Positions 1 through 52,079 of a stretch of 64,000 nucleotides of DNA are shown in pieces. Below the pieces are notes generated by a model. It was not told the origin of the DNA, did no database searches, and saw nothing but the letters and a program-made list of their open reading frames with translations. The position numbers were made by a program, and so were the translations under genes. Source of the DNA: Acidobacteriota bacterium (GTDB taxonomy: Bacteria; Acidobacteriota; Terriglobia; Bryobacterales; Bryobacteraceae); assembly GCA_025353165.1 (NCBI GenBank), contig JANXRE010000141.1, positions 1 to 64,000 on the forward strand, written 5' to 3'. How positions within the stretch are numbered: the first letter of the stretch is position 1; each line of letters opens with the position of its first letter.

Positions 1-2
1 TC

Positions 3-1781
3 GATAAAGACGGCGTGACCACCCCCGGCGCGGTCTCCATCAGTCTGATCGCCGCCCGCATTCCGGCCGGTCAAACGCAGTATGTCTCCTACACGACAAA
101 CACTGCAAACGCAACGACAAACAGCAACCCGCCGCAAATCCAGGCGGCGAACGACAGGGGTGGAATATTCAGCAAGAACGCGGACGGCGACTACACTTAT
201 ACGTTCAAGACCAAAGCGCCGGCCAATTTCGACTCGACCGTCACGCACGCCATCGGCGTCTCCGCCCAGCGCGATTTGACCGCGTTCATGACGTACGACG
301 AATGGAGCGAAACATCCAACGATGTGTTCACCTTTGTTCCGAACGGCGCGGCGGTAAAGGTAGTGAGGGACGTGGTCGCGACGTCGGCCTGCAACCAGTG
401 TCACGACCCGCTGATCGGGCACGGCGGTTCGCGCCTTTCGGTGCAGCTCTGCATCATGTGCCACACGCCCCAGACCATCAACCCGGACACGCAGCTTACG
501 CAGGACATGCCGGTCCTGATTCACAAGATCCACATGGGGTCGAGTCTGCCCAGCGTGAAGGCCGGCACCCCGTACCGGATCTGGCACCGAGGCCAGTGGT
601 CGGATTTCTCCACCGTGGTCTTCCCTCAGGATGTCCGCAATTGCACCACCTGCCACGCGGCTGGGCCCGCGCAGGCCGACAACTGGAAACTGAACCCCTC
701 GCGCGCGGCGTGCGGCGCCTGCCACGACAACGTCAATTTCGCCACCGGCGAGAATCATGTCAATCTGCCGGAATTCAACGACAACCAATGCAAGAACTGT
801 CACACCTCCGTGGCGGCGTTGGATTTCGACGCCTCCATTCCGGGCGCGCACATGGTTCCGAGTCACTCCGCTTCGCTTCCCGGAATCGTCATGAAGATCG
901 TCAAGGTGGACAACACCGCTCCGCTGGATGCTCCCACGGTGACGTTCAGCGTTGCCGACAAGGCCGGCAATCCGGTCGACATCAGCAAGCTGTCGAGGTT
1001 CCGGGTGCTCCTGGCAGGCGGCAACACCGACTACCAGACGGGACCGGGCGGAATCCGGGTCAGCGAGGATGCGGGGAAGGCACCGGGCAGCAACGGCCTG
1101 TACACCTACAACATGACGAACAAGCTGCCGGCCGCGGCGGCGGGCTCGTACACGATCTCGCTCGAAGCCCGCAATGCGGTGACACTGCTCCCCGGTACAA
1201 AGAAAGAGACGGTGGCCACCGACTCTGCCAAGCCCGTCGAGTACTACTTCTCGGTAGACTCGAGCCCGGTCAGCCCCCGCCGGGTGGTCGTCGCGACTGA
1301 GAACTGCAGCACCTGCCACTATGACCTGACCTTCGTTCACGGCGGCACTCGCAACGCCACCCAGGAATGCGTTCTCTGCCATAATCCGACGCTGGCGGAT
1401 GGCACTTCCAACCAGAGCGTCAACTTTGCAACCCAGATCCACAGCATCCACCGCGGGGAAAGCCTGGCGAATCCTTACGTTCTAGGAACCAGGAATTACC
1501 AGGACCTTCGCTTCCCCGGCGATCCGCGGGTTTGCTCCACCTGCCACGTGAATAACTCCTACCAGCCCGACATCGTCGGCGCAGTCGCATTGGTTGCGAG
1601 CCCGGGCGGCTTTACGCCGACCACTCCTCCCATCAGCGCCGCCTGCCAGGGTTGCCACGATGACAAATCGACCGCTTCGCACGCTTACGCCAACACGACG
1701 ATTCTGGGCGAGAGCTGCACGGTCTGTCACGGCCAGAACGCCGAGTTCTCGATGGACAAAGTCCACTCCCGGACTCAGTAG
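3..1781 (+). CDS. OmcA/MtrC-family decaheme c-type cytochrome (5' truncated by window edge)
   Basis: Outer-surface multiheme cytochrome, expected to carry electrons between a porin-cytochrome conduit and extracellular acceptors. Ten CXXCH haem sites are visible (CNQCH, CIMCH, CTTCH, CGACH, CKNCH, CSTCH, CVLCH, CSTCH, CQGCH, CTVCH), arranged as two pentahaem halves with beta-rich segments before each, as in OmcA/MtrC. The reading frame is open to the window edge, and its first residues align with residues about 95-130 of the paralogue at 6477-8633 (shared TTPG and YVSYT/FVSYT blocks). The real start, signal peptide and any lipobox are therefore upstream, and the GTG at 15 is not the start. The gene converges on the monooxygenase/MtrCAB operon with a strong hairpin between. 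Family assignment is firm; physiological direction of electron flow is unknown. Confidence 0.9.
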   Translation, partial: DKDGVTTPGAVSISLIAARIPAGQTQYVSYTTNTANATTNSNPPQIQAANDRGGIFSKNADGDYTYTFKTKAPANFDSTVTHAIGVSAQRDLTAFMTYDEWSETSNDVFTFVPNGAAVKVVRDVVATSACNQCHDPLIGHGGSRLSVQLCIMCHTPQTINPDTQLTQDMPVLIHKIHMGSSLPSVKAGTPYRIWHRGQWSDFSTVVFPQDVRNCTTCHAAGPAQADNWKLNPSRAACGACHDNVNFATGENHVNLPEFNDNQCKNCHTSVAALDFDASIPGAHMVPSHSASLPGIVMKIVKVDNTAPLDAPTVTFSVADKAGNPVDISKLSRFRVLLAGGNTDYQTGPGGIRVSEDAGKAPGSNGLYTYNMTNKLPAAAAGSYTISLEARNAVTLLPGTKKETVATDSAKPVEYYFSVDSSPVSPRRVVVATENCSTCHYDLTFVHGGTRNATQECVLCHNPTLADGTSNQSVNFATQIHSIHRGESLANPYVLGTRNYQDLRFPGDPRVCSTCHVNNSYQPDIVGAVALVASPGGFTPTTPPISAACQGCHDDKSTASHAYANTTILGESCTVCHGQNAEFSMDKVHSRTQ

Positions 1782-1794
1782 GCGATTCAGAATG

Positions 1795-1827
1795 CGGTTG
1801 GGATCGCCTTCCGGGCGGTCCCAACCG
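1795..1827. terminator. Hairpin between convergent genes, likely bidirectional terminator
   Basis: Arms at 1795-1808 and 1814-1827 pair over 14 positions, 13 Watson-Crick plus one G-T, around the 5-base loop TTCCG. A short T/C-rich stretch (GACTTTCCCCC) follows on the + side. It lies 14 bases after the decaheme cytochrome stop and about 100 bases from the stop of the facing monooxygenase gene. Confidence 0.7.
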
Positions 1828-1929
1828 GACTTTCCCCCGATTCCGATGTTGCGCGCGTCAGCAAGCGGTCTTATCGCAGGGCCGGGAAACCGCTCCCTCA
1901 CGGTCGCGGCTCGGAAGCGCTCGCAGAAA

Positions 1930-3504
1930 TCACTTAGATGATTCGAACACGCGACCGAAGTACTCCAGCACCGGCATGGGTTCGGTGGACAATCCCCGGA
2001 AACCCACGTAGCGGTCCGGCCGGATGATGTACGCGCAGGGCAAGCCCGCGCCGTACCGGTGGTGGAGTGACCCGCTGAGATCCACGATGTGCTCGCCGTC
2101 CCACTCGACTTCGCCGCGCGAGATCAGAATGGTTCTGACGTCTTCGGGATAGCCTTCCCGCATGTACCTCGCGGTGTTCGAGAAACCTCGCAGATTCTCC
2201 GCGCTGGGACGCTCGGCGGTAAATAGCATCACCGCGTGTTTCGTGCCCGGGAGGCGATCGAAGAGGCGGCTTCCGTCGGCCAGCGTGGCATCCAGCGCAC
2301 GGTCGCCAGGATCGGGGCCGGGGGAATACCAGCGCCCGTGCTGGGACACGATGGGACTGTTCCGGTAATTCAGGCTGGCGTTGGCGACCTGCCGGGCGAG
2401 GCGCTGCTGGAAAATATCGAACTGGGCCAGAAAAGGGAGGATCCGGTTCCGGATTTTCTGCGAGATCGGATTGCGCAGATTGGCAACCGCGGACAGTTGC
2501 TCGGTAAGCGCCAGCACGGCGCGTCCGGCGGATTCGCGCTCGATGCCGTAACTTTCGAGCACGGTAGCGGAAGCCTTCCCTTGCACCGCCAACGCAAGCT
2601 TCCAAGCCAGATTGTGCACGTCCTGGATCCCGGCATTCATGCCCTGGCCGCCGGCCGGGCTGTACACATGCGCGGCGTCACCGGCGAGAAATACGCGGCC
2701 GAGCCGGTAACGCTCCGCCCGCTTGTGCTGCACGCCGTACGACCCGATCCAATCCAATGCGGCGATTTCTCCGATGGTCGCCCGGGCGACCGCGCGGATC
2801 GTTTCGGCCTTTGAATCCGGCAGAATGCGCTGATCTCCCACAATCCGCCAGAGCCCTCCGGGCAGCGGGGCGCAGGCCAGCACGCCATCCTCGGTGCAGT
2901 ACAGGTACCATTCGTCGTCCGGTAGCGGAAAGCTAAGACGCACTTCCGCCGCGACGTAAGTCTCGATCGCCGCGCCGTTTTCGGTAGGAATGGACGAGAC
3001 GTGGCGAACCGTCGAGAACGCGCCGTCGCAGCCGACGACGTACTTTCCTTCCCAGCGCTCGGGGAATCCGCTGCCGCGTTGGATAAACGCCTGAATCCCC
3101 TGCTCATCTTGCTGGATACCGGTGAGGGCGGTATTCCGCTCGACCGTCCCGCCCGACTCGGCCAAGACCTGGAGAAGGATGTGCTCCGTCTGCTGCTGCG
3201 GGAGATCGAGCGCGTAACGGAACGGGCTGTCCAGTTCATCGAAGCTGAAGTGCAGGATCCGGCTGCCCCCGGCGTGCACGCTGGCCCCGTGTATCTTGTG
3301 GCCGGCGCTTATGAAATCGGCCGCGACGCCCATCGATTCGAAGACTTCCAGCGTGCGGGCTTGCACCGCAACGGCCCGGGAACCCGGCGTCGAACCAGAG
3401 TTCTGATCGATAACGCGCGGCCAGACACCGTGACGGCGTAGTTCGGCGGCCAGGGTGAGGCCCGCCGGGCCGGCCCCTACGACGAGGATTTCAGGCTGAG
3501 ACAT
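1930..3504 (-). CDS. FAD-dependent aromatic-type monooxygenase (PheA/TfdB family)
   Basis: A class A flavoprotein hydroxylase of 524 aa. Visible motifs are the N-terminal Rossmann GAGPAGL (residues about 8-14), the second FAD/NADPH motif CDGAFSTVR (about 160), and the ribose-binding GD motif in LAGDAAHVYSPAGGQGMN (about 275-292). A C-terminal thioredoxin-like extension is suggested by the length. Members hydroxylate phenolic or polyketide-like substrates using NAD(P)H and O2; the substrate cannot be read here. It starts 25 bases after the MtrB-like gene and is probably the last gene of that transcript. Its presence behind an electron-conduit operon is unusual: it could act on a quinone or shuttle-like compound, but that is speculation. 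Confidence 0.85.
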   Translation of the reverse strand: MSQPEILVVGAGPAGLTLAAELRRHGVWPRVIDQNSGSTPGSRAVAVQARTLEVFESMGVAADFISAGHKIHGASVHAGGSRILHFSFDELDSPFRYALDLPQQQTEHILLQVLAESGGTVERNTALTGIQQDEQGIQAFIQRGSGFPERWEGKYVVGCDGAFSTVRHVSSIPTENGAAIETYVAAEVRLSFPLPDDEWYLYCTEDGVLACAPLPGGLWRIVGDQRILPDSKAETIRAVARATIGEIAALDWIGSYGVQHKRAERYRLGRVFLAGDAAHVYSPAGGQGMNAGIQDVHNLAWKLALAVQGKASATVLESYGIERESAGRAVLALTEQLSAVANLRNPISQKIRNRILPFLAQFDIFQQRLARQVANASLNYRNSPIVSQHGRWYSPGPDPGDRALDATLADGSRLFDRLPGTKHAVMLFTAERPSAENLRGFSNTARYMREGYPEDVRTILISRGEVEWDGEHIVDLSGSLHHRYGAGLPCAYIIRPDRYVGFRGLSTEPMPVLEYFGRVFESSK

Positions 3505-3529
3505 GATTGCTTTCAGGATATGCCCGGCT

Positions 3530-5494
3530 TCACCGGATCAGACGCAGGCTGGTCATGAAGACGTGCGCGCGGAAACCCTCGAACGCATAGACGGCCTCGT
3601 TCATGCCGTACCAGCGCCATTCGGTGTTCCATTGAATATGCTCGCGGATCGGGAATGAAATGCGCGCTTGCGGCTGATAGTAAGCGGTGGGCCGCGTTCC
3701 AGAGGACTTGAAGTACGAACCACCCGCGCTGAACCGGGGCGCGAACCGGCCAGTGACCGGCGAGCCTTCGATCAGCGCGGTGATGGTGTGCGCGTTGTCG
3801 CGGTACTGCGACACCGCCGGGATCAGAGCTTGGGGAATAAAGTAATTGATGTCGGAGCGCAGTCGCGAGAACGTGTAGTCCCCCAGCACAGTAAAGCGCT
3901 TCGCCGCGGCGGGCACCCACTGGAATCCGAGCGACGACTGGCTGTACAGAAAATCGAGATTGATATTGGTATCGGGATTCGAATTCGTAGTCAGGCTCTG
4001 GGCCACCGAGAAGCTGAGAGCGCTGGACGCCTGGTAGCGCGCCCGGATGGAACTCCGCTTGTAGTTATAAAGGCTGGTGCGGAAGAAAGCGCGGCTGGTA
4101 GTGCCCACCTCGAGATCGCCGTTGACCGTCAGCTTCTGCTTCATCCGGAACTGAAAGCCCGCGAGACCGACCTTTTGCCGCAAGTCGGCCGTCTGGTTAG
4201 GCTGGAACTGCGGAGCGGTGATCGATCCTTCGGTTTGAGCGTCGCCCCAGACATAGCGGAATCCGCCGCGAACGGTCAGGTAGGAAGTGAGGTCGAACAT
4301 CGCTTCGGTCTGGTGCCGGTTGTAGTTCACATAGATGCGGTCGACGTCGTTGGTTGAGACGGCGGCCGGCGCCAGATTCGTCAGGTCGGAATAAACCTGG
4401 GAGGACGCGACATGGAAGCGGTCGGAAGACAGGGACTCCAGAATTCTAAGCCTGCGCGACGGATGAATATCGACGAGATAACTGCCGGAGGAATGAGGCT
4501 GGTTGGCGTATGCAGTGGCGTTGTCGTGCTGCGACGCGTAGAACTCCAGCGTCTGGAGATCGACAAAGTTGCCCGTGTTCGTCTGATCGTAGACCACGCT
4601 CGTCGTCGGTAGGCTATACAGGAACTGGCCCGACAGGTCCAGCCAGGAGAAGGGCGAATAGGAGACCATCGCGCGGGTGAAGATGCTGTCGCCCGTCACT
4701 CGGTAGGCTTGCGCCGCCGAACTCAAGAAGAGGCGCTGTCCGAAAATCGGATTCGCGCGATTCCCGTAAATCGGGTCGCCGGAATAAGAGACCAACTGGT
4801 CGTCGTGGAAGCTGGTGCCACCGCCTTCGAGCGTGGCGTGAAACTTCGAGAACTGGATCTGGACGCCGCCACGGTAACGGTCCTCGTGATTCGAGATGCG
4901 GTTCCCGACCGGATATTGATTGCTTTGGACGACGAAGGTCGTTACCCCGGAACCGCCGTCGGAATTGCGGTCGAACGCAAAGTATGGAACGAAGCGAGTG
5001 CCTGGGAGAAGGCGGAGTTCGGTGTCGAAGGTCCGGATGCGCGTGTCGAACGCCTGCTCGGTGGAGACGATTCCGCGAGACAGCAGCGGATCCGCATAGG
5101 AGGGGAGAAAGTTGTAGTACGCGATGTTCCTGTAATCCACGCGCAGGTCGTAGAGGCGTTCCTTGAACGCGTCCGCTCGGAAGGTGCTGTAAGGATCGCC
5201 GCCCCAGCCCATTCCCTGGACGCTGATGCGGTCGAAGAACTTGCGGTCGGCACTGCGGATCAACCCGTCGACGTTGAAAAGCTTGGGGCCTTCGCCCAGG
5301 TTCACCACGGAACGGTACGTAGCAAAATTCCCGCCGCGGAAATCCACCCAGCGATACCCGGCGTCTATGCTTCCTTCCACTCCGGTGTCACGGGGAGTTT
5401 TGTCCGGCGCCGCCGGGGCCGGCTCCGGCGCCGGTTTAGGCGCGTCTTGAGCCATCAGGGGCAACAGCGTGAACAGAACCAGCAGGGTCCTCAT
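3530..5494 (-). CDS. mtrB: MtrB/PioB-type outer-membrane beta-barrel
   Basis: A 654-aa barrel expected to sheath a periplasmic decaheme cytochrome in the outer membrane. It has an N-terminal signal peptide (MRTLLVLFTLLPLMAQ), a Pro/Ala-rich linker, then a long run of alternating hydrophobic/polar strands rich in Tyr, Phe and Arg typical of a large porin (for example GGFRYVWGDAQ near residue 410). No cysteine haem sites are present. Its ATG overlaps the TGA of the upstream decaheme gene in an ATGA, so the two are translationally coupled, which fits the obligate MtrA-MtrB partnership. The call rests on barrel character plus this context; primary-sequence similarity within the family is low. Confidence 0.8.
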   Translation of the reverse strand: MRTLLVLFTLLPLMAQDAPKPAPEPAPAAPDKTPRDTGVEGSIDAGYRWVDFRGGNFATYRSVVNLGEGPKLFNVDGLIRSADRKFFDRISVQGMGWGGDPYSTFRADAFKERLYDLRVDYRNIAYYNFLPSYADPLLSRGIVSTEQAFDTRIRTFDTELRLLPGTRFVPYFAFDRNSDGGSGVTTFVVQSNQYPVGNRISNHEDRYRGGVQIQFSKFHATLEGGGTSFHDDQLVSYSGDPIYGNRANPIFGQRLFLSSAAQAYRVTGDSIFTRAMVSYSPFSWLDLSGQFLYSLPTTSVVYDQTNTGNFVDLQTLEFYASQHDNATAYANQPHSSGSYLVDIHPSRRLRILESLSSDRFHVASSQVYSDLTNLAPAAVSTNDVDRIYVNYNRHQTEAMFDLTSYLTVRGGFRYVWGDAQTEGSITAPQFQPNQTADLRQKVGLAGFQFRMKQKLTVNGDLEVGTTSRAFFRTSLYNYKRSSIRARYQASSALSFSVAQSLTTNSNPDTNINLDFLYSQSSLGFQWVPAAAKRFTVLGDYTFSRLRSDINYFIPQALIPAVSQYRDNAHTITALIEGSPVTGRFAPRFSAGGSYFKSSGTRPTAYYQPQARISFPIREHIQWNTEWRWYGMNEAVYAFEGFRAHVFMTSLRLIR

Positions 5495-6441
5495 TTCAGG
5501 AAGCTCCTATCCACCTGCGATCCGTGCGTTTTGATGTGGCATACGCTGCAGTTCCGATATATCGGGCTGCGCAAATCGTGAAAGGCCGGGGGCACGCCGC
5601 CGATGGTGTGCGTCTGGGCCGCGGAGAGCCCCACGTTGGCGTGACACTCCAGGCACACAAACCGCTCCTCATGGCGAGTGAGCATACGCGGATTCGCCGA
5701 GCCGTGCGGCTCGTGGCACGTTTGGCAGCCTTCCATTTTCACCGGCGGATGCTCAAAAGCAAACGGCCCGCGCTTGTCGCTGTGGCAGCGGACGCAACCG
5801 GGCTCGTTGGCGTTTACCGTGTTGACCATGCGAGGGAGAAAACTGCCGTGGGGGTTATGACAATCGACGCAGGACATGGCGCCTTCCGGCAGGCGATGCG
5901 TGTGCGGCCGCTGAAACTGGGCCCAAACTTGGACGTGGCAGCCGGCGCATTCGGCGTTGATCGCCTTGTTGCGGCCCGTGGTAATCGCCTCGGCATCCGG
6001 CTTGTGCACCGAATGGCAGCTCACGCAGGCGACCTGATATCGGCCGTGCCCGCCCTGAACCCGGCCGGCATGGGCGAATGTGTTCTTGTGGCATCCCAGG
6101 CAAATGCGCTCCGATTCCGCCGGCCGGACCTTGGCCGGATTCACGATGTCGGAGGCGGAAGCGGACTCGGCGTGCTTGCCTCCCGGACCGTGGCAGGACT
6201 CGCACGCCTTCCCAGCCCACTGCAGACTCGGGCCGCGGATGCCCTTGGAGGCTTCCACCGTATGATGGCGGTTGCGCCCGAAGGCTTTGAAAATGTCTTC
6301 GTGGCAAGCCTGGCAGGTTTCCGAGCCCGCGTATTCCGCGGGCTTGGAGGAGTCAGCCGGTTTTGCGTTTTGAGAAGCGAAGACCAGCCCGGCAACGCTC
6401 AGTGCGACGATTCCCAACTTCACACTTGGAACCTTTACCAT
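5491..6441 (-). CDS. mtrA: MtrA/DmsE-type periplasmic decaheme cytochrome
   Basis: A 316-aa cytochrome with ten CXXCH sites (CQACH, CESCH, CLGCH, CVSCH, CAGCH, CVDCH, CVRCH, CQTCH, CLECH, CSVCH), matching the DmsE/MtrA family in length and spacing; CXXCHxPHG repeats are visible. The N-terminus (KLGIVALSVAGLVFA) is a Sec signal. Known members form a haem wire inside the MtrB barrel and pass electrons from periplasmic carriers to surface cytochromes. It sits between the surface cytochrome gene (35-base gap) and the porin gene (ATGA overlap), the classic mtrCAB gene set in the order C-A-B. Confidence 0.92.
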   Translation of the reverse strand: MVKVPSVKLGIVALSVAGLVFASQNAKPADSSKPAEYAGSETCQACHEDIFKAFGRNRHHTVEASKGIRGPSLQWAGKACESCHGPGGKHAESASASDIVNPAKVRPAESERICLGCHKNTFAHAGRVQGGHGRYQVACVSCHSVHKPDAEAITTGRNKAINAECAGCHVQVWAQFQRPHTHRLPEGAMSCVDCHNPHGSFLPRMVNTVNANEPGCVRCHSDKRGPFAFEHPPVKMEGCQTCHEPHGSANPRMLTRHEERFVCLECHANVGLSAAQTHTIGGVPPAFHDLRSPIYRNCSVCHIKTHGSQVDRSFLK

Positions 6442-6476
6442 TCCATAGACCTCAGTCTCGCCTCTTCGCTTTGAAC

Positions 6477-8633
6477 TTATTCCGCGTGCACCTTGGTCGT
6501 GGCGAACTCGGCGTTAGGGCCGTGGCAAACCGAGCAGCTCTCGCCGAACTGCGTCGTATTTGCGAAGGCGTGCGAGAGCGCGGCATTCGTCGCGTGGCAG
6601 GCCGTGCAGGCCGCGGTCGTGATCGGCGTCGGGTTCCACTTGCCCTGCGGGTTGTTCATGGCGTTCAATCCCTCGGGGAAGATGGCTTCGGAACCGTTCA
6701 CATGGCACATGTTGCACTTGCCGATGTTCCCGGTCTGTCCAGTGCCGTCCATCACGGGATATTGGACGCCGCTGTAATCGTTCACGCTGCCGCCGAATCC
6801 GACGACGGTGTAGCCCACTCCGGTGAAGTTCTTCACGTTCTCGCCTCCATGAATGTGGTGAATCATGTAAGCGAAGCTGACCGCCTGCGGAGGCAGGGCC
6901 TTCTGGACGGGGTCCTTCGTGATCGCGCGCCTGACCGCGTCCGTTTCGGAGGCGTTGTGGCAACTGACGCACATTTCGATCCGGTCGCGGTTGGTGCCGT
7001 GGAGCGACAGGTTGGTGTGGCACCCGTTGCACTTCGCCAGATCGACGACCGTACGGCGCGAAGCAACCGGCGAGCCGTCCACCGCGAAGTAAGCGAGTTT
7101 GTTGTGGGCTCCGTACTCCGTGCTGACCGCCTTGAGCGTTCCGGCCAGGATGGTGATGCCGCGGCGGCCCTCCAGCCCGATGCTGTAGGTTCCGGTCGCG
7201 CTGGCGGGGATCGCATGCGTAAAGGTGTAGGAGCAGTTCCCGCCGGCATCACAGGTTCCGCCGCCCGTCACGATGTTTTCGGAGATGTAGCCGCCGGTCT
7301 CCTGGTCAGCGCCGAAGCTCGTGTAGCCGTAATCGATTACCGGGCCCGCGAGGACTCCAGCGAGGCGTCCGGGGGATGCCGCCAAAGATGGCAGAGGGAT
7401 CGGAGTACCGCTCTTGTCTTTCAAGGTGAAGGCGATAGTTGGTTTGGTCCCGGCCGTTCCGTTAGTGACTACGAGGTTGTCGAACACCATCCCGGGAACG
7501 AAATCCTGCGTGTCCGGAATCAGGCCGGCGTCCGTATTGATGTGAGCGCCCAGGATGGAAGCATCCAGCGGCAACTCGCCTTGCGGGATGTGGCAGTTCG
7601 CGCACTGGTTGTCATCTAGTTGAGGCAGGTCGACGTGGTTTTCCCCGGTGGCGAAATTCACGTTGTCGTGGCAAGCGCCACAGGCGGCCCGGTTGGGCTG
7701 GGTAAGATACAAGTTGGCCTGCTTGGCTCCATACTTAGCGTCGTGGCAAATCTGGCACTGCCCCTGATCGGACGGTAGAGCGACCGTCGAGAAGTCAGAA
7801 ATCGCGCCCTGATACCCGGCAATCTGATAAGGGGTGCCGGCTATCACGCTCGGCAGTTTCTCTCCCATGTGGACCTTATGGATCAGCACGGGAAACCACA
7901 GGGAGTTCTGCGTGGTCGGGTCCGAAGCCGCCTTGGTATGACACATCACACAAAGCTGCGCTCCCTGCGCATTACCGCCGTGGAAAGCGAGCGTCGCATG
8001 GCAACTGTTGCACGCCTCGGTGCGAATGATGTCGTGGACCTGGGTGGGCGGCTTTCCCCCCGGAACGAAGTCGAGAACGGCCCCCGCGTAGTTGGTTCCG
8101 AGCGAGAACTCGCTCAAATCACGAATCGCGACACACGCGGCTCTGTGAGATGCGGTGATGTCGAAACCGGACGGCGCCTTGGTCTTGAACGTGTACAGGT
8201 ACTGGCCGTCGGCCGTCTTGGTGAACGCGCCGCCAAAATCGTACCAGACCTGGGTACCGTTGTTCCCGTTCGCAGTGACCGGGAACGAGGTGTAAGACAC
8301 GAAGTCGTTGCTGCCGTTGGGCAACACCGCTATCGTACAACTGACCGCAACGGGTCCTGGAGTGGTAATTCCGGCCCTGTCGAGCGGCAGCCCCTTGGGA
8401 TCGCCGATGCTGACCGCAGCCGTCATGGTGCCGTCGGCCTTGACGTCGGCCGCGGTTACAGCGAATGTCAGGCCGGGGCGGACAAAATCGACCGTCGCGG
8501 CGTCCACATTGAACGCTTTTTGGCTGATCCTCCGCTTAAAGTCGGTTGAACCAGCGGTCAAAATCGCAATCGCGCCGATGGCTAGTAATGCAGTGAGTTT
8601 AGAAATTGTTTTCGATAAAGGCGGCATGCGCAT
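6477..8633 (-). CDS. mtrC: OmcA/MtrC-family decaheme c-type cytochrome
   Basis: A full-length 718-aa surface cytochrome with ten CXXCH sites (CNSCH, CVMCH, CQICH, CGACH, CANCH, CNGCH, CVSCH, CNMCH, CTACH, CSVCH) split into two pentahaem modules, each preceded by a beta-sandwich segment. The N-terminus has a hydrophobic segment (LTALLAIGAIAILTAGS); no clear lipobox cysteine is present, so anchoring by a lipid is not supported. A second ATG lies six bases inside the chosen start. It is the first gene of the conduit operon and paralogous to the cytochrome at 3-1781 (same haem-motif order and near-identical ACGACHDNVNFATGENHV-type segment). Confidence 0.92.
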   Translation of the reverse strand: MRMPPLSKTISKLTALLAIGAIAILTAGSTDFKRRISQKAFNVDAATVDFVRPGLTFAVTAADVKADGTMTAAVSIGDPKGLPLDRAGITTPGPVAVSCTIAVLPNGSNDFVSYTSFPVTANGNNGTQVWYDFGGAFTKTADGQYLYTFKTKAPSGFDITASHRAACVAIRDLSEFSLGTNYAGAVLDFVPGGKPPTQVHDIIRTEACNSCHATLAFHGGNAQGAQLCVMCHTKAASDPTTQNSLWFPVLIHKVHMGEKLPSVIAGTPYQIAGYQGAISDFSTVALPSDQGQCQICHDAKYGAKQANLYLTQPNRAACGACHDNVNFATGENHVDLPQLDDNQCANCHIPQGELPLDASILGAHINTDAGLIPDTQDFVPGMVFDNLVVTNGTAGTKPTIAFTLKDKSGTPIPLPSLAASPGRLAGVLAGPVIDYGYTSFGADQETGGYISENIVTGGGTCDAGGNCSYTFTHAIPASATGTYSIGLEGRRGITILAGTLKAVSTEYGAHNKLAYFAVDGSPVASRRTVVDLAKCNGCHTNLSLHGTNRDRIEMCVSCHNASETDAVRRAITKDPVQKALPPQAVSFAYMIHHIHGGENVKNFTGVGYTVVGFGGSVNDYSGVQYPVMDGTGQTGNIGKCNMCHVNGSEAIFPEGLNAMNNPQGKWNPTPITTAACTACHATNAALSHAFANTTQFGESCSVCHGPNAEFATTKVHAE

Positions 8634-8849
8634 TGGAGAACCCCCGCCCCCATGGGTGCAAGCACACGGCCATTGTTATTCCAGACCTGTTTCTCTGTTG
8701 TTTCTTTAACTTAGGCGTTAGCAGATTTACGATAAACGTCTGCGGGTGGGCCAAGTGTCGCCATTGAGTGGGGGAAATCGCGACAAGAGACCGATTACTT
8801 GGCCAAATCCGGTTGGAACTTAAGTCGCGTGTCTTTCGTTTTGCAGGGC
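8634..8849. other. Divergent intergenic region between conduit operon and permease remnant
   Basis: This 216-base spacer holds a moderately AT-rich core (about 8690-8735) that should contain the promoter for the minus-strand cytochrome operon. I could not identify a convincing -35/-10 pair, operator or terminator in it. Confidence 0.4.
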
Positions 8850-10579
8850 ATGGAGTTTCTGTTCGCCGACGTCAAGCAAGCCTTCCGGGTGTTGCGCAAG
8901 AGCCCGGGATTTATGATCACCGCAATCGCCGCGCTCGCATTGGGCATCGGAGCGAACACCGCGATTTTCTCCGTCGTGGATTCGGTGCCGCTCAAGCCGC
9001 TCCCCTATCCGGAGGCCGACCGGCTGGTCAACGTGGTACGGACTTTCAAGAGCGGGTACGGCGATAACACTTCCATTCCCAAATTCAATATCTGGCGGCA
9101 GGAAAATCGCGCCTTCGACGCGATGACAGCTTACGATTTCGGCGGACCGGGAATGAATAGGGCCGGTGGCGACGTGCCGGAGCAGGTAAAAGCCATTCAC
9201 ACCACGGACGAGTATTTCCGCGTTTTCGGCGTCCAGGCTCAGATTGGCCGCACCTACACCGCCGAGGAGGACCGCCCGGGGCTCCCAAGGCGGTGGTGAT
9301 GAGCGACGGCCTCTGGAAACGGCGTTTCGGCGAGGACCCGGCGATCGTCGGCCGCAACATTTCGTCGGCTTAAGCGGCGAGCCATACACGGTGGTCGGCG
9401 TGTTGAGCCGGTCGTTCCAGCCCGACCCGCCCAGCGATGTTTGGATTCCGCTGCAGCCGGATCCGAACAGCGCCAATCAAGGCCACTATCTGGCGGCAAC
9501 CGGCCGCCTGAAAACGGGGGTCACGCTTGAGCAGGCCAAGGCGCAGTCGAAGGTGATTGGCGAGCGCTTCCGGACCCAATATCCTCTCGATGGCGGGCGG
9601 CCGGTACGCCAACGCCGAGGCGCTGGATAATTTCGACCGGCAAGTAACCGGCCGGCTCGAATCGATCCCCGGAGTGCAGGGCGTTACGATGTGCATTTCG
9701 CTCCCCTTGCAGCAGGTCGGCGTCGATCTTCCCTTCAGCATTGTCGGAAGGGCGCTGCCGAACGGGGAGAATTATCACGGCGACGATTTCTGGCGGAATA
9801 TCAGTCCGCATTACTTCAACGTGTTCAAGATCGGGCTTCTGCGGGGACGCGTTTTCGATAAACGCGACACCCGAAAAGCGCCGCCGGTGATTATTATCAA
9901 CGACACGTTTGCGAACAAGTATTTCCCGAAGCAGGACCCGATTCGGCCAGCAGATTCTGGTGGGCAAGGATCTCGGGCCGGACTTCGCCGATGCTCCTCG
10001 CCAGATTGTCGGCATTGTCGCCAACGTTCGCGAGGGCGGACTGGACCAGGATTTCAGGCCGGTCATGTACATCCCGGCCCAGCAGGAGCCCGAGGGGATG
10101 TCGCGGCTTGTGAATCAAATTCTTCCCATGACCTGGGCCATTCGAGTGGCCGGCGACCCGTTTTCGATCACGAATGCCGTGCGGCGGGAGATTCAGTCGG
10201 TAGATGGCCAGATGCCGGTGGCGAAGTTCAAGAGCATGGAACTACTGGTGCGCGTGAACACCGCCCGGCAGAGCTTCAATATGATGTTGTTCAGCATTTT
10301 CGCGGCGATCGCCCTGCTGCTCGCGGCCATCGGGCTGTATGGACTGATGGCGTATTCGGTGGAGCGGCGGAGGCAGGAGATTGGAATCCGCCTGGCGCTG
10401 GGGGCCGCTCAGGGCGACGTCACCTCGATGATCGTGCGGCAGGGGATGCTGCTCGCCGGTATCGGCGTGCTGGTTGGGCTGGCCGCCGCGTACGGGTTGA
10501 CACGGCTTTTGCAGAGCCTGCTGTACGGCGTGAAGCCGTACGATCCGTTGACGTTCGCGGGAGTCGCCGTGATTCTCTC
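8850..10579 (+). pseudogene. ADOP/MacB-like ABC permease, decayed and truncated
   Basis: Remnant of an acidobacterial duplicated orphan permease (FtsX/MacB family, about 800 aa when intact). The N-terminus (SPGFMITAIAALALGIGANTA, a membrane helix) is in one frame to about 9278. The reading frame then changes near 9278, 9362, 9590 and 9945, with an in-frame stop at 9298-9300 in the first frame. MacB-type periplasmic segments and the C-terminal FtsX helices (FSIFAAIALLLAAIGLYGLM, then the ERRRQEIGIRLALGA motif) can be followed through about 10579. The first FtsX transmembrane block expected around 9585 is missing, so there is also an internal deletion. Homology stops after FAGVAVILSL; the missing final residues appear at 20560-20653. 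Clearly non-functional. Confidence 0.85.
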
Positions 10580-10919
10580 CCTATCTCGATTTCGAATTGG
10601 TTCGTGCAATACACCACACTTCTTGGCGAAGTGCGGTTATATTACCCGAGGGGAGAGCCTGAGAACGTTCCTTTTCAGGCCCCGGAGCACGCCAGTTTGC
10701 GCGAAGTAGCCAGCAGTGTAGGCCTGCATGAGAGAAACTGCTTTTGCGGATATTGGCCATTCGCGAACATTTCCGCGGCCACGCAGTTAACCCGTAGGGA
10801 CAGAGATCCGAACTGAAATAGTTTGGCTCCCCAAGCGCTACACGAAGGAAATTCCGGTCGCTATAGGGCTTGGTGAGAATTAGTAAGTTGTTTTTACATC
10901 ACTGACTTCCGGTGAAAAT
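10580..10919. other. Gene-free left end of the inserted block
   Basis: About 340 bases directly after the permease homology breaks off. An open frame runs through it but shows no family I recognise. The only structured element is the IS-end-like repeat at 10822-10851. Confidence 0.4.
10822..10851 (+). repeat. Left copy of a ~30-bp direct repeat, IS-end-like
   Basis: TTTGGCTCCCCAA (10822-10834) followed by GCGCTACACGAAGGAAA (10835-10851). The same two blocks recur in the same orientation at 20043-20055 and 20057-20073, with one extra G between them. The right copy follows an ISL3 transposase remnant, so both are probably relic ends of the same ISL3-type element. The two copies bracket the kinase block. 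Confidence 0.65.
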
Positions 10920-11159
10920 TTAGCTCGCCAGGCCTAAATCAAATCCGCCTTGCTCGAAGGTCCTATCGGTTTGTGAGCTTCGCTCTTTGAACCAGTCCCG
11001 AAAACACTCATGCTTCCGGATGTGCCGCCCCAGATCCGCCCATACCGATTCACAGAGCCGAACGTCTTCGCTTTCCCCTGTCTGCGCCATCACCGCTAGC
11101 AGTTCCCCGTAAAGGGCCGCCAGGCGTAGGCGTTCCGGGCAATCCGTTACGGGCGGCAC
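10920..11159 (-). CDS. Small hypothetical protein
   Basis: A 79-aa ORF with a GTG start that overlaps the end of the upstream 82-aa gene by 13 bases. The sequence (LRLAALYGELLAVMAQTGE, then a Trp- and Cys-containing region) looks protein-like and helical, but I recognise no family. It is the distal gene of a possible two-gene minus-strand unit just inside the inserted block. Confidence 0.4.
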   Translation of the reverse strand: MPPVTDCPERLRLAALYGELLAVMAQTGESEDVRLCESVWADLGRHIRKHECFRDWFKERSSQTDRTFEQGGFDLGLAS

Positions 11160-11395
11160 ATCGAATGGTCCACGTACTGCTTACGCCCGCTACCGGTGAC
11201 GTAGTAACAGCCGTCTCGTGGCCCGGTGATGTACTTCCGCTCTCCCTGCGCGGAGGCTGAGGGCTGCGGCGCGCCTTGCTGGGCGCTCGGGGTCGGCACC
11301 GCGGGTTGGTTGGCGGCTGGTTCGCATAGCGACCGGGGTACTGACTTCTTCTTTCCACTGGCGCTCACGCTGTAGCAACCGCCGCGCGGCCTCAC
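11147..11395 (-). CDS. Small protein with two Gly-Cys-Tyr basic repeats (PBCV-adaptor-like)
   Basis: An 82-aa ORF made of two copies of an about 20-residue unit (RGGCYSVSASGKKKSVPRSLC and RDGCYYVTGSGRKQYVDHSMC) joined by a Pro/Ala/Gln-rich linker. The unit resembles the PBCV-specific basic adaptor repeat known from large DNA viruses and scattered bacteria; this is recognition by motif only. No signal peptide is visible. The start is GTG and an in-frame stop lies six codons upstream, so the gene may be 5' truncated. Confidence 0.5.
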   Translation of the reverse strand: MRPRGGCYSVSASGKKKSVPRSLCEPAANQPAVPTPSAQQGAPQPSASAQGERKYITGPRDGCYYVTGSGRKQYVDHSMCRP

Positions 11396-11465
11396 ACCTT
11401 GAAAGCATCAAGGGTGGGATAGGCAGAGCCGCGTTGCCTGTGCCAAAAGTGGCACCAAAAATCGC

Positions 11466-11496
11466 TTGACTGCCTTGTACCCTTGTGATTAACAAT
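11466..11496 (+). promoter_or_regulatory. Weak candidate promoter for the kinase pair
   Basis: TTGACT at 11466-11471 followed after 18-19 bases by the AT-rich TAACAAT. The -10 match is poor. It lies 30 bases before the ATG of the HAMP kinase in the only AT-rich part of the leader. Confidence 0.3.
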
Positions 11497-11525
11497 CCTA
11501 TGAAGGCTGGCTAGCTAGAGCGCAC

Positions 11526-12653
11526 ATGAGCGATACGACGGGTATTTCTTTACCCAAGAACGGACCGCCTCCGATTCCTCCTCCTGTTAAGAAAGGGGGT
11601 GGGAAAGCTAAGGATCCTGCTCATTCGCGAGCACTTAGCGTTTCTATGGCGCGGACCGGGGAAGCCCGGCTTCGTTTGATCCTTGGCGCTATGACCGCCT
11701 TCCGGGACGGGGACTTTTCGGTCCGCCTTCCCCTAAACTGGCCCGAAACCGAGGGGGCTATCGCGGGGGCATTCAACCAGGTGATCGCGGAGAAACAGCG
11801 CATCTCTAAAGAAGTTGCGCGGTTGAGCGAGGCGGTCGGTAAAGAAGGTCGGCTGAAACAGCGCATGACCCTTCGGGGCGCTATCGGGGGGTGGGCCGCT
11901 GAAGCCGACTTTGTGAACACCCTGATTGACGATCTGGTTCGTCCGACTACGGAATCGGCGCGGACGATCGGGGCTGTGGCGAAGGGCGATCTGGGGCAGT
12001 CCATGGAATTGGAAGTGGACGGTCGTCTTCTCAAGGGCGAATTCCTCAGGTCGGCCAAGCTGGTCAACACCATGATTGAGCAGCTTTCGGTGTTTACGTC
12101 GGAAGTGACGCGCGTGGCTCGTGAGGTCGGCACGGAGGGCAAGCTCGGCGGGCAGGCGCAGGTGCCGGGCGTTTCGGGCGTCTGGAAAGACCTGACGGAC
12201 TCGGTCAACCAGATGGCGGGCAACCTGACGGCGCAGGTTCGGAATATTGCGGACGTGACGATCGCGGTGGCGAACGGCGATTTGTCGAAGAAGATTACGG
12301 TGGACGTTCGGGGCGAAATTCTGCAGCTGAAGGAAGCCACCAACACCATGGTGGATCAGCTGCGGTCGTTCGCTTCCGAAGTGACTCGTGTGGCCCGCGA
12401 AGTGGGTACGGACGGTCGGCTGGGCGGTCAGGCTGTGGTGCCTGGTGTGGCGGGTACGTGGAAGGATCTCACTGACTCAGTGAACGCGATGGCGACGAAC
12501 CTGACGGCTCAGGTTCGGAACATTGCGACGGTAACAACGGCTGTGGCTCGCGGCGATCTTTCGCGCAAAATCACGGTGGACGTTAAAGGCGAAATTCTGG
12601 AGCTGAAAGAAACCATTAATACGATGGTGGATCAGCTGAACGGGTTCTCCTAG
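11526..12653 (+). CDS. N-terminal part of giant HAMP-array hybrid kinase, ended by an in-frame amber codon
   Basis: This 375-aa frame carries a Pro-rich N-terminus (PPPIPPPV), two divergent HAMP units (starting near residues 55 and 150), and the first two and a half units of the regular array ([32 protein letters not shown]). It ends in NGFS followed by TAG at 12651-12653. The downstream ORF is in the same frame and resumes with [10 protein letters not shown]; sister repeats read GFASEVTRV with TCG at the stop position. A single C-to-A change therefore explains the stop. Intact, the protein would have about 2,208 residues. No membrane segment or signal peptide is seen, so it is cytoplasmic. 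See the next feature for the output domains. Confidence 0.85.
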
Positions 12654-15400
12654 GAAGTGACCCGCGTGGCCCGCGAAGTCGGCACGGAAGGCAAGCTGGG
12701 CGGTCAGGCGGAGGTGCCTGGGGTGGCCGGTACGTGGAAGGATTTGACGGACTCAGTGAACTCGATGGCTTCGAACCTGACGGGTCAGGTTCGGAACATT
12801 GCGGACGTGGCGACGGCGATCGCGCGCGGGGATCTTTCTTCGAAGATCACGGTGGAAGTGAAGGGCGAAATTCTGGCCCTGAAGAACACCATGAACACCA
12901 TGGTGGACCAGCTGAACGGGTTCGCTTCGGAAGTGACTCGTGTGGCGAGGGAAGTCGGCACGGAAGGCAAACTGGGCGGCCAGGCTGAGGTTCGCGGCGT
13001 GGCGGGTACGTGGAAGGATTTGACCGACAACGTGAACTTCATGGCCTCGAATCTGACGGGCCAGGTGCGGAACATTGCGGAAGTGACCACGGCGGTAGCG
13101 AACGGCGATCTTTCGAAGAAGATCACCGTCGACGTGAAGGGCGAGATTCTGGAGCTGAAGAACACCATCAACACGATGGTGGTGCAGCTCAACGGGTTCG
13201 CTTCGGAAGTGACGCGCGTGGCGAGGGAAGTCGGCACGGAGGGTGAGTTGGGCGGGCAGGCGGAAGTTCGCGGTGTGGCGGGTACGTGGAAAGATCTTAC
13301 GGACTCGGTGAACGCGATGGCGACGAACCTCACGTCGCAGGTTCGGAACATTGCGGAAGTGACGACGGCGGTGGCGAACGGAGATCTTTCGAAGAAGATC
13401 ACGGTGGACGTTCGTGGCGAAATTCTGGAGCTGAAGAACACCATCAACACGATGGTGGATCAGCTGAACGGATTCGCCGGCGAGGTCAGCCGTGTGGCTC
13501 GCGAAGTGGGTACGGAAGGCAAGCTGGGCGGTCAGGCGCAGGTGCCGGGCGTTGCTGGAACGTGGAAAGATCTCACGGATAACGTGAACTGGATGGCGTC
13601 GAACCTGACGGGCCAGGTACGCAACATTGCGGACGTGGCGACGGCGGTGGCAAACGGCGATCTTTCGAAGAAGATTACCGCCGACGTGAAGGGCGAAATT
13701 CTGGAGCTGAAGAACACGCTGAACACCATGGTGGATCAGCTGAACGCGTTCGCTTCGGAAGTGAGCCGCGTGGCGCGCGAGGTGGGTACGGAGGGCAAAC
13801 TGGGCGGGCAGGCGCAGGTCCGCGATGTGGCCGGTACGTGGAAAGATTTGACGGATAACGTCAACTCGATGGCGAACAACCTGACGAGTCAGGTACGGAA
13901 CATTGCGGACGTGACGACGGCGGTGGCGCGCGGCGATCTTTCGCGCAAGATCACGGTGGAAGTGAAGGGCGAAATTCTGGAGCTGAAGAACACCATCAAC
14001 ACCATGGTGGATCAGCTGAACGGGTTCGCCGGCGAAGTGAGCCGCGTGGCGCGCGAGGTGGGTACGGAAGGCAAGCTGGGCGGTCAGGCGCAGGTTCCTG
14101 GCGTGGCCGGTACGTTGAAAGATCTCACGGATAACGTGAACTTCATGGCCTCGAACCTGACGGGCCAGGTGCGCAACATTGCGGACGTGGCGACGGCCAT
14201 CGCGAAGGGCGACTTGTCGAAGAAGATCACGGTGGAAGTGAAGGGCGAAATTCTGGCCCTGAAAAACACGGTCAACACCATGGTTGATCAGCTGAACGCG
14301 TTCGCCGGCGAAGTGAGCCGCGTGGCGGGCGAGGTGGGTACGGAAGGCAGGCTGGGCGGTCAGGCGGCGGTGCCGGGTGTGGCGGGTACGTGGAAAGATC
14401 TTACGGATAACGTGAACTCGATGGCGTCGAATCTGACGGGTCAGGTTCGAAACATTGCGGAAGTGACCATCGCGGTGGCGAACGGCGATCTTTCAAAGAA
14501 CATCACGGCCGGCGTGCGCGGTGAAATTCTGCAGCTGAAAGAGACCATCAACACGATGGTGGAACAGCTCAGATCGTTCGCTTCGGAAGTGAACCGGGTG
14601 GCGAGGGAAGTGGGTACCGAAGGGCGGCTGGGTGTGCAGGCGGTAGTGCCGGGCGTGGCGGGTACGTGGAAAGATCTTACGGACTCTGTGAACGCGATGG
14701 CGACGAACCTGACGGCGCAGGTCCGGAACATTGCGGAAGTGACAACCGCCGTGGCGCGCGGCGATCTCAACCGTAAGATCACGGCCGACGTGAAGGGCGA
14801 AATTCTGGAGCTGAAGAACACCATCAACACGATGGTGGATCAGCTGAATTCCTTCGCTGGCGAAGTGACCCGTGTGGCGCGCGAAGTGGGTACGGAAGGC
14901 AAGCTGGGCGGCCAGGCGATGGTCCCCGGCGTGGGCGGCACGTGGAAGGATCTCACGGATAACGTGAACTTCATGGCTTCGAATCTGACGGAACAGGTTC
15001 GCGGCATTGTGAAGGTGGTGACGGCGGTGGCGAACGGCGATCTGACGCAGCGCCTGACGGTGCAGGCGAAGGGCGAGGTGGCGGCGCTGGCGGACACCAT
15101 CAACAACATGACGGTGACGCTGGCGACGTTCGCGGATCAGGTGACGAATGTGGCGCGCGAAGTGGGCGTGGACGGGCGGCTGGGCGGTCAGGCGAACGTG
15201 CCTGGCGCGGCGGGTACGTGGAAAGATCTCACGGGTAACGTGAACCTGCTGGCGGCGAATTTGACGACGCAGGTCCGCGCGATTGCGGAAGTGGCGACGG
15301 CGGTGACGAAGGGCGATCTCACGCGGTCCATTCAGGTGGAGACGCGCGGTGAAGTGGCGGAGCTGAAGGACAACATCAACACGATGATTTCTAACCTTCG
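12237..15400 (+). repeat. Tandem array of 276-bp HAMP-coding units with no indels
   Basis: The VR(N/G/A)I start of each unit falls at 12237, 12513, 12789, 13065, 13341, 13617, 13893, 14169, 14445, 14721, 14997 and 15273: twelve units at exactly 276 bases (92 codons). The central units are close to identical in DNA and protein, while the last two (from 14997) are more diverged. This is a recombination-prone array and also a place where assemblies collapse or expand. Confidence 0.95.
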
Positions 15401-49644: not shown

Positions 49645-50820
49645 TCAGATACCGGCCGGCTCTTTTTCCTCCAGCCACGGAGGGAGCAGTTTCAGAAGTG
49701 CCCACAGAATCGCGAACGGCAGAAGCATGAGCACGATGCTCGCGCCCAATCCCTCGCGCGTCGCAAACTGCAACTTGTAGCTCGTGTAGCCGAGATAGCT
49801 CTTGGAGAACAACTGCCCGCCGATAACCACGTTCCAGCGCATCGCGAAGATGCCTACCATCGTCAGGCATCCAGCGGCCGCGTACATCGCCTTCCGCGCG
49901 CCTTCGCGAAACTTGAACACCTGATTGGCTCCCAGGAGGACCAGGGGAGTTACGGTGCCAACCAGAATCTGAAGCACCACCTGCGATGCCCAGAGGCGCG
50001 TGTGAACCATGAAGTCCAGGCTGCGGAACGACTCGTCGGCCTCATAGACGCGGTGAATCAGGTCCAGCATCTCCAGCGAGAAATCGATCACAAAGACATA
50101 GAACAAATACTGGCAGATTGTGTCCAGGCACCGCATGTCAATCGCGACTTTTCGCACCTTCGACGCCGCCATGTAGATCAGCATGACGGCGGCAATGCCT
50201 GAGACCATCGCCGAAAAGAGGAAAACAACCGGCATCAGCGGCGTGGACCACCACGCGTTTGCCTTGACCGAGCCGAAAATGAAACCTACATACCCGTGCA
50301 GCAAGAAGGCTGACGGGATACCGATAACCGTGATGACATAACCGACCCGCTCGTCAATTCGACGCGCCCGCGGGCTGATGTTCCGCGAACCGAGTGTGAG
50401 TATTCTATAAACCCACCGCCAGGGCGCCCGCGCTGTCTGCGAGAACTCGACAATCTCCACACGGTAGTCAAGCCAGATCTCCAACAGCAGGACGACCATC
50501 AGGTACCAGAGGTATACAAACCCGAACATCGCCATAGCCGACGAGGTATGAGGAGTGAGGTACATCTCGTAGGAACGCTCCGGGTGGCCCAGATGGAGTT
50601 GCAAGGGCAGTGGGGCGACCAACAGGAACGCGAGCGCCGTCAGCAGCGCAAGCCTGTAAGTGGGTTTGACGGCCGACACGTTAAACACGCGCTCGAGCGA
50701 CGCCAGAATGAATGCTCCGGCAACAAGACCGGTGATGAATGGGTAGAGAACGATCAGTATGCTCCATTGCAGCTCCACCTCGTTCGGGTACATGAAACCT
50801 TCGACGCCGGTTGGTCCCAT
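49645..50820 (-). CDS. NrfD/PsrC-family quinol-interacting membrane subunit
   Basis: 391 aa with about ten membrane helices (LYPFITGLVAGAFILASLE, LLTALAFLLVAPLPLQLHLGHPERSYE with the conserved LGHPER signature of NrfD/PsrC). Such subunits bind menaquinol and pass electrons to a periplasmic iron-sulfur subunit. ATG 50820 was chosen; the longer frame is antisense to the FeS gene. Forms a module with the adjoining FeS protein and tetraheme cytochrome. Confidence 0.88.
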   Translation of the reverse strand: MGPTGVEGFMYPNEVELQWSILIVLYPFITGLVAGAFILASLERVFNVSAVKPTYRLALLTALAFLLVAPLPLQLHLGHPERSYEMYLTPHTSSAMAMFGFVYLWYLMVVLLLEIWLDYRVEIVEFSQTARAPWRWVYRILTLGSRNISPRARRIDERVGYVITVIGIPSAFLLHGYVGFIFGSVKANAWWSTPLMPVVFLFSAMVSGIAAVMLIYMAASKVRKVAIDMRCLDTICQYLFYVFVIDFSLEMLDLIHRVYEADESFRSLDFMVHTRLWASQVVLQILVGTVTPLVLLGANQVFKFREGARKAMYAAAGCLTMVGIFAMRWNVVIGGQLFSKSYLGYTSYKLQFATREGLGASIVLMLLPFAILWALLKLLPPWLEEKEPAGI

Positions 50821-50834
50821 TGTGTCGATCTCCC

Positions 50835-51566
50835 TTAACGGACGGCCCCGTCCAGCGCCCGGTAAAACGTCTTCGAACGTGTCGCCATCTGCGGTTTGAG
50901 CACCTGTATTTTGTTGTTGCGGAGGAACTCGTGCACGGGGTCGCTTGGGTTCTTGAGGTCCGCCAGTTGCCTTGCGCCCGTCGGGCACGCTTCGCAGCAG
51001 GCTGTCGTGAGCCCTTGTGTGATGCGGTGGTAGCACAGCGTGCACTTGTCCACGGTTTTCTTCACTGGGTGGATATACCGGCATCCGTAAGGGCAGGCCT
51101 GCACGCAATACCGGCAGCCCAGGCAATACTTCTCATCCACCAGCACCACTCCATCGGGCGATACAAATGTCGCCCCGACCGGGCAAACCTGCACGCACGG
51201 CGACATTGCACATTGGTTGCAGAGCTTCGGCACAAAGAATCGCTTGGCGTCCGCGCCCTGCATCGGAGGGAACCCGTGAATGCCTCCGTCCGGCGACGCC
51301 ACCACGGGTGTCGCATCCTCGCCCGGTGGAACTTCGTAACGCTCGATCCAGGTCCGGTAGAAACCTTCCGGCACGCTGTTTTCAACTGCGCAGGCGCGCA
51401 CGCAGTTGCCGCAGCCGATGCACTTATCGATGTCGATGGTCATGCCCCACCAGTGCGCATGCACGTCGTAGGCGCCCGGGGAGGAGGTTGCGGAAGGCTC
51501 CCCGCTGCTGGTCATGGCCGCAATAGAGGTCGTGAGGATCAGGAACTTACGCCGGTTGATCTCCAT
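50835..51566 (-). CDS. Tat-exported four-cluster 4Fe-4S ferredoxin-type subunit
   Basis: 243 aa, DmsB/NrfC/PsrB type. Leader NRRKFLILTTSIAAM is twin-arginine-like. Four Cys groups: CIGCGNCVRAC, CNQCAMSPCVQVC, CLGCRYCVQAC and CTLCYHR...CCEACP. It would link the NrfD quinol site with the tetraheme cytochrome in the periplasm. 9 bases from the cytochrome and 14 from nrfD. Confidence 0.92.
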   Translation of the reverse strand: MEINRRKFLILTTSIAAMTSSGEPSATSSPGAYDVHAHWWGMTIDIDKCIGCGNCVRACAVENSVPEGFYRTWIERYEVPPGEDATPVVASPDGGIHGFPPMQGADAKRFFVPKLCNQCAMSPCVQVCPVGATFVSPDGVVLVDEKYCLGCRYCVQACPYGCRYIHPVKKTVDKCTLCYHRITQGLTTACCEACPTGARQLADLKNPSDPVHEFLRNNKIQVLKPQMATRSKTFYRALDGAVR

Positions 51567-51575
51567 GAAGTTCTC

Positions 51576-52037
51576 CTATTGCATCTGCGGACTGTGCGGC
51601 TGGTGGCACGAGAGGCACTCCGCCCCGCCCGAGTGCTCAGCCGGGACGACTTGGGGAAAATAGGCCGGCTTCGCCTTGTCCGCCTTATGGCAGCCCTGGC
51701 ACAACCCGGTCCCAGCCAGTTTCTTGGGTTTCATCGCGGCCGGATCATCGGCGTGTTTCGCCAGCGGACCGTGGCAGGCCTCGCAGGAAACACCCCGATG
51801 TTTGCCTTTCGAGCGGGTCGTTGCGACTTCGTCATGGCACATCGCGCACGTAGCCTGACCGGCGAACGAGACCGGACGGACCCGTATGTCGTCGAGCGCC
51901 GCCGCCCGGTAATGGCCGTATTGACCGAATGTCTTAGGAACAAGGACTTGCCGGAACAGCAAAAACACCGCGACTCCGGCGAGGACGACGAGCACCAGCG
52001 GAATCAGGTGCGCTGCGTCCTTCAGGCGGCTGGACAC
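51576..52037 (-). CDS. Membrane-anchored tetraheme c-type cytochrome
   Basis: About 153 aa: one N-terminal helix (LIPLVLVVLAGVAVFLLF), then four CXXCH sites (CAMCH, CEACH, CQGCH, CLSCH). The GTG at 52037 is preferred: AGGAGG ends five bases before it, whereas the GTG at 52043 overlaps the ribosome site. First gene of the respiratory module; probably the periplasmic electron donor or acceptor of the FeS/NrfD pair. Confidence 0.9.
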   Translation of the reverse strand: MSSRLKDAAHLIPLVLVVLAGVAVFLLFRQVLVPKTFGQYGHYRAAALDDIRVRPVSFAGQATCAMCHDEVATTRSKGKHRGVSCEACHGPLAKHADDPAAMKPKKLAGTGLCQGCHKADKAKPAYFPQVVPAEHSGGAECLSCHQPHSPQMQ

Positions 52038-52079
52038 GGCCACCTCCTTTTTAGACGGCCGGGCTAAGAATATATTCAG

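Follow-up and report, generated by a model that had tools for sequence, protein, structure and literature searches.

The window considered here is a stretch of 64,000 nucleotides, the first 64 kb of an 89.5-kb contig (C63, GenBank JANXRE010000141.1) in the 5.77-Mb draft genome of an Acidobacteriota bacterium of the family Bryobacteraceae (98.4% complete, with 2.7% estimated contamination). On its minus strand, at positions 3530-8633, lies a cluster of three genes that probably encodes an electron conduit across the outer membrane, working like the MtrCAB system of Shewanella. The first gene, mtrC-like, occupies 6477..8633 and encodes a decahaem cytochrome of the OmcA/MtrC family (718 amino acids). 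It is followed by an mtrA-like gene at 5491..6441, for a decahaem cytochrome of the DmsE/MtrA family (316 amino acids), and by an mtrB-like gene at 3530..5494, for an outer-membrane beta-barrel (654 amino acids). The genes are adjacent and co-oriented: 35 bp separate mtrC from mtrA, with no terminator-like site between them, and the stop codon of mtrA overlaps the start codon of mtrB in the sequence ATGA at 5491..5494. A first-pass annotation of this DNA had proposed a complete MtrC-MtrA-MtrB set in the order C-A-B, with mtrA and mtrB coupled through the ATGA, and both proposals are borne out by the overlap, by the family cut-offs that the two cytochromes pass and by the predicted fold of the third product.

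The two cytochromes are readily assigned. MtrC scores 460.9 bits with the NCBIfam model TIGR03507 (curated cut-off 209.3) and also matches PF22113, and its sequence matches in the PDB are OmcA, MtrF and MtrC; a hydrophobic segment lies near its N-terminus, at residues 10-28. MtrA scores 233.4 bits with TIGR03508, likewise an NCBIfam model (cut-off 192.2), begins with a signal-peptide-like hydrophobic segment (residues 4-22) and matches the crystallised MtrA, chain 6r2q_A, at E 1e-35; the molecule label of that chain reads 'Cystathionine beta-synthase', while the title of the entry is 'Structure of the Mtr complex'. Exactly ten CXXCH motifs are present in each protein. In the alignment of MtrA with 6r2q_A, all ten histidines of the haem motifs are conserved, as are 9 of the 11 further histidines within the aligned part, so the haem ligands of MtrA are not missing, and the earlier claim of ten intact haem sites in each cytochrome stands. 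The DNA pattern for the haem motif occurs 38 times in the window against 3.2 expected, and the highest count in 100 shuffles was 8. Of these matches, mtrC and mtrA account for ten each, and another OmcA/MtrC gene, located at 15..1781 on the plus strand (see below), for ten more.

The identity of the porin is the one point that is not visible from sequence, and it is the weak point of the name MtrB. The protein matched nothing in Pfam and NCBIfam at E 0.001 or in Pfam at E 10, and it found no PDB sequence either with phmmer at E 1 or through a profile of 21 sequences at E 10. As these sequence searches came back empty, the assignment relies on structure and on linkage. An AlphaFold model of the porin, built on an alignment of 15 sequences, contains 27 strand elements and has a mean predicted local distance difference test (pLDDT) score of 78.7 and a predicted template modelling (pTM) score of 0.70; the first 35 residues and several loops are predicted with low confidence. 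Both structure searches with this model place 6r2q_B first, the chain that is MtrB in the Shewanella Mtr complex. Foldseek gives it E 1.1e-17 and a template modelling (TM) score of 0.67, with the next structure at E 1.0e-10 and 0.41, and VIA-align gives it Z 26.0, at 3.6 A over 560 residues of the 649-residue chain, with the next at 15.7. The model thus does not resemble an unrelated barrel, and the first-pass naming of the gene as mtrB is upheld in a restricted sense: by predicted fold and by neighbourhood the porin is MtrB, and it is not a member of the sequence family PF11854 (MtrB_PioB). In an alignment of 21 porins of this class (A1), 5 match PF11854 weakly (best E 3.7e-4) and 14 match NF041027, the model for Geobacter GSU2204, also weakly (best E 3e-7); the window porin is in neither group.

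The second line of evidence for the porin is the company that its relatives keep. We read 33 porin loci, namely 20 loci that include a second pair of this genome and 13 of the 19 from a scan of named genomes, the other six being contigs already included. In 32 of the 33, a homologue of MtrA with at least nine haem motifs lies within 1.5 kb of the porin relative. The exception, locus L073, has no such MtrA, and its porin lies 689 bases from the contig end. An OmcA/MtrC gene is visible in the fetched stretch of 14 of the 33 loci. The nearest named relative is the Bryobacterales metagenome-assembled genome (MAG) bog_159 (PMVV01000115.1), which agrees with the window cluster in its three genes, their order and the ATGA overlap (L060:5183-5186) and shares 46% identity in MtrC, 59% in MtrA and 44% in MtrB; the other 18 loci of the named-genome scan all carry acidobacterial names. 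In a tree of 33 MtrA sequences (the window MtrA and the 32 just described), the proteins of the window and bog_159 are sisters with support of 100/100. Presence of MtrC beside the pair takes two changes on this tree, and none of 500 shuffles was as low, although near copies cluster such labels by themselves. The tree has several long end branches, three of them flagged as meeting, and its deeper forks are unsure.

How widely is this porin spread? In a sample of 247 genomes of the phylum, with matches counted at E 0.001, the window porin as query finds relatives in 50 genomes, many of the weaker matches covering only the N-terminal part of the query. PF11854 has matches in 63 genomes, 62 of them over its cut-off; in 14 control genomes it has one match, below the cut-off. 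An MtrB-type porin of either kind thus occurs in 102 of the 247 genomes, and only 11 genomes are in both lists, so that counts based on PF11854 miss many. The figure of 50, obtained by searching with a single protein, is probably a lower bound. At one locus (L042, positions 17637-23116 of contig C107 in genome G131), a PF11854-type porin and one of the divergent class stand side by side, each with an MtrA gene. Five genomes of family f23 (G027, G053, G065, G142 and G174) have several OmcA/MtrC genes, often in tandem, and do not appear among the listed matches of either the window porin or PF11854; the porin that goes with these cytochromes may belong to a further class.

Downstream of mtrB, at 1930..3504 on the minus strand and beginning 25 bp past it, family and domain matches identify a flavin adenine dinucleotide (FAD)-dependent monooxygenase like the aromatic hydroxylases. 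It is possibly co-transcribed with mtrB. A shared function with the conduit was considered and set aside, since no homologue appears at E 1e-5 in 19 related loci (L060-L078). Beyond it lies the second OmcA/MtrC decahaem cytochrome gene mentioned above (15..1781, plus strand), which scores 479.5 bits with TIGR03507 over model positions 35-672, has ten CXXCH motifs and encodes a product that shares 41% identity with the cluster's MtrC; the 5' end of the gene is probably cut by the contig edge. The homology of these two oppositely oriented genes accounts for the inverted repeats in 1-9000, whose four longest arm pairs lie inside them, and an interpretation of the repeats as an element was rejected. 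The G+C content is even along 1-20000 (58.5-63.3% in 2-kb steps), so base composition does not point to a recent transfer. The numbers of promoter- and terminator-like sites do not rise above chance, and a scan of viral contigs with the porin as query found nothing. The open reading frame at 11526-12653 and the one after it appear to have repeats in common, as judged by eye from the translation.

The rest of the genome holds more genes of the same families. Counting the mtrC of the cluster and the gene at 15..1781, at least four OmcA/MtrC genes score over the cut-off (4 of 19 candidates were scored). Contig C44 carries two convergent ones, at L009:5970-8192 (plus strand) and L009:10232-12274 (minus strand), with 10 and 11 CXXCH motifs; in the second, the extra haem motif appears to sit in a short insert, and the open reading frame between the two has, by eye, the look of a propeller-type repeat protein. 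A second MtrA-MtrB pair lies on contig C77 (L040:7255-10213), where the 17 kb fetched contain no MtrC. An MtrAB pair of the C77 kind is also found in G187, the only other sampled genome of the same family, in which none of the 4 candidates scored out of 9 matched OmcA/MtrC. Genes of the cytochrome c assembly family are present in the window's genome.

How, then, could electrons enter such a conduit? The genome has one NapC/NirT-domain gene over the cut-off, on contig C187. It encodes a protein of 478-480 amino acids with three hydrophobic segments, one CX3CH motif and five CX2CH motifs. These are the features by which ImcH is described in the available part of a 2018 survey (PMC6295460), namely three N-terminal membrane segments, an adjoining CX3CH, further CX2CH motifs and similarity to NapC/NirT, and by this architecture the C187 protein may be called ImcH-like. 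As far as the same part of the survey goes, Acidobacteria have 19 ImcH, two CbcL-type and no CymA homologues, and no mtrAB was found adjacent to imcH. In the sample of 247 genomes, homologues of the C187 protein are found at E 1e-20 in 106. Such a homologue occurs in 36 of the 50 genomes that carry the divergent porin and in 35 of the 63 that carry a PF11854 porin. Gene and porin are no more than 5 kb apart in 16 of those 50 and in 9 of those 63, with no overlap between the two groups, which amounts to 25 of the 102 genomes with either porin. At locus L044, mtrC and mtrA flank a homologue 47% identical to the C187 protein. The window itself holds another candidate quinone module, at 49645..52043 on the minus strand, where domain matches and hydrophobic segments indicate a membrane-anchored tetrahaem cytochrome, a four-cluster ferredoxin (TtrB/DsrO/NrfC-like) and an NrfD-type membrane protein. 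No recognised catalytic subunit lies alongside these three genes.

Taken together, these results argue that the cluster specifies a trans-outer-membrane conduit that works like MtrCAB, a reading to which we give a probability of roughly 0.8. The three products would assemble into one complex, with MtrB as a barrel in the outer membrane and the ten-haem MtrA inside it. MtrA would relay periplasmic electrons outward to MtrC, the ten-haem cytochrome at the cell surface, and MtrC would pass them to an extracellular acceptor, either a humic substance or an Fe(III)/Mn(IV) oxide. The electrons would come from the quinol pool, most likely through the ImcH-like cytochrome or else through the NrfD-type module at 49.6-52.0 kb. 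On this proposal the likely role of the cluster is to discharge respiratory electrons onto these oxides or onto humic matter.

Several observations weigh against this proposal. PF11854 has no match anywhere in the genome at E 1, and in the alignment of 21 porins the generic barrel model OMP_b-brl matches 7 sequences (best E 1.2e-4; the window porin is not included), more than the five that match PF11854. MtrC has no lipobox cysteine, its first cysteine being residue 99, well past the hydrophobic segment at 10-28. The MtrC of Shewanella has a lipobox cysteine, which anchors it as a lipoprotein, but this trait perhaps does not define the whole family. There is no quinol dehydrogenase gene at the cluster. 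The ImcH-like gene and the cluster lie on different contigs of a draft genome with 2.7% contamination, so in this genome they are linked by homology only. Finally, no ImcH-like homologue is found at E 1e-20 in 14 of the 50 genomes with the divergent porin or in G187, which has MtrAB.

The main rival explanation keeps the conduit and reverses it: with Fe(II) or reduced organic matter as the donor, MtrC and MtrA would pass electrons inward to a respiratory chain, as in PioAB and MtoAB. The two COX1-family oxidases of the genome would suit such a flow, as would the second MtrAB pair without an adjacent MtrC, considering that Fe(II)-oxidation clusters often lack mtrC according to the available text of PMC4245776. 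Here, however, an OmcA/MtrC partner is present, together with the other such genes of the genome, and RuBisCO, sought as a sign of lithoautotrophy, has no match in the genome; the absence of RuBisCO together with the two COX1-family matches is what one would expect of a facultative heterotroph. The ImcH-like protein, moreover, falls by its architecture in a group whose members have so far all come from Fe(III) reducers, at least in the available part of PMC6295460. None of these three points is decisive, and we regard inward flow as unlikely, while still giving it more weight than any other alternative.

Two further explanations are less probable still. The conduit might serve an extracellular terminal reductase, as DmsEF serves the dimethyl sulfoxide (DMSO) reductase in Shewanella, and NCBIfam does call the MtrA family 'DmsE'. 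The third gene of the cluster is an mtrC, however, and not a dmsAB pair, and no molybdopterin reductase was found among the window open reading frames scanned, which were not all of those in the window, the genome itself not having been searched; this makes a terminal-reductase role quite improbable. Or the porin might be an unrelated barrel that adjoins the decahaem cytochromes by chance, as could be argued from its failure to match PF11854 or any solved structure by sequence and from generic barrel models that match some of its relatives as well as MtrB_PioB does. That idea is already disfavoured by the fold search, which puts MtrB far above other barrels, and the MtrA linkage in 32 of 33 loci and the weak PF11854 matches of 5 of 21 relatives also speak against it, leaving it barely credible.

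Returning to the outward conduit, a tentative proposal, to which we give slightly less than even odds, is that Acidobacteriota use a hybrid chain. In it, an inner-membrane quinol oxidase of the ImcH type, as in Geobacter, would feed an outer-membrane conduit of the Mtr type, as in Shewanella, whose porin would belong to the class missed by PF11854. The trait would be spread across the phylum and undercounted by surveys based on PF11854. Acidobacteriota are common in soil, and their part in the redox cycling of iron and humic matter has mostly been inferred from genomes; the recurrent linkage of ImcH with MtrAB offers a concrete electron path that is testable in cultured relatives.

The first-pass annotation had considered the host phylum unusual for such a system. 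With porins in 102 of 247 genomes and earlier acidobacterial reports in hand, that claim is out of date. The reports, each as far as its available text goes, describe homologues of MtrA and MtrC in the acidobacterial genera Solibacter and Terriglobus, in work on peat (PMC3669403, 2013), a porin-cytochrome complex in Holophaga (PMC7399161, 2020), and mtrCAB clusters of Acidobacteriia/Bryobacterales, classified as 'Group 5' (PMC8805035, 2022). In its available part, a further study (PMC6137239) presents putative extracellular electron transfer systems in acidobacterial MAGs from a hot spring and no Shewanella-type mtrABC homologue in its core co-assembly. The presence of mtrCAB in Bryobacterales and of MtrA/MtrC homologues in the phylum was therefore already known. 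What the present analysis adds is a porin class beyond the reach of PF11854, together with the linkage of ImcH-like genes to an MtrB-type porin, which the 2018 survey (PMC6295460) did not find. Our literature search met with no earlier account of these divergent porins, nor of imcH linked to mtrAB among Acidobacteriota, which is not proof of absence.

Four systems invite direct comparison. Group 5 of PMC8805035 shares with the window cluster the phylum, probably the order, a complete mtrCAB and the lack of an adjoining quinol oxidoreductase. In the available description, a tetrahaem cytochrome gene follows mtrB directly in its clusters, mtrC is not duplicated, and the vicinity lacks a quinol oxidoreductase. 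Compared by that description only, the window cluster differs in having the FAD monooxygenase after mtrB in place of the tetrahaem cytochrome and a second OmcA/MtrC gene 1.75 kb beyond mtrB. The Geobacter pair GSU2203/GSU2204 (NF041028 and NF041027) is approached through MtrA, whose match to NF041028 scores 196.9 bits and so stays under the cut-off of 325, and departs in the porin, as the window porin has no match to NF041027; a literature search for GSU2204 found nothing. Within the same genome, the C77 pair has a ten-haem MtrA 42% identical to that of the window, beside a porin of the same class that is 24% identical. It differs in the absence of MtrC noted above and in its MtrA, which groups with those of G187 and another Bryobacterales MAG, apart from the window MtrA. 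Finally, MtrCAB of Shewanella (6r2q) resembles the window cluster in its C-A-B order (given for S. oneidensis in the available text of PMC12133095), in two ten-haem cytochromes of the same families and in the MtrB fold. The differences are equally clear: the porin here is only 12-14% identical in structure alignments and stands outside PF11854, its MtrC partner is without the lipobox cysteine, and no CymA is encoded at the locus.

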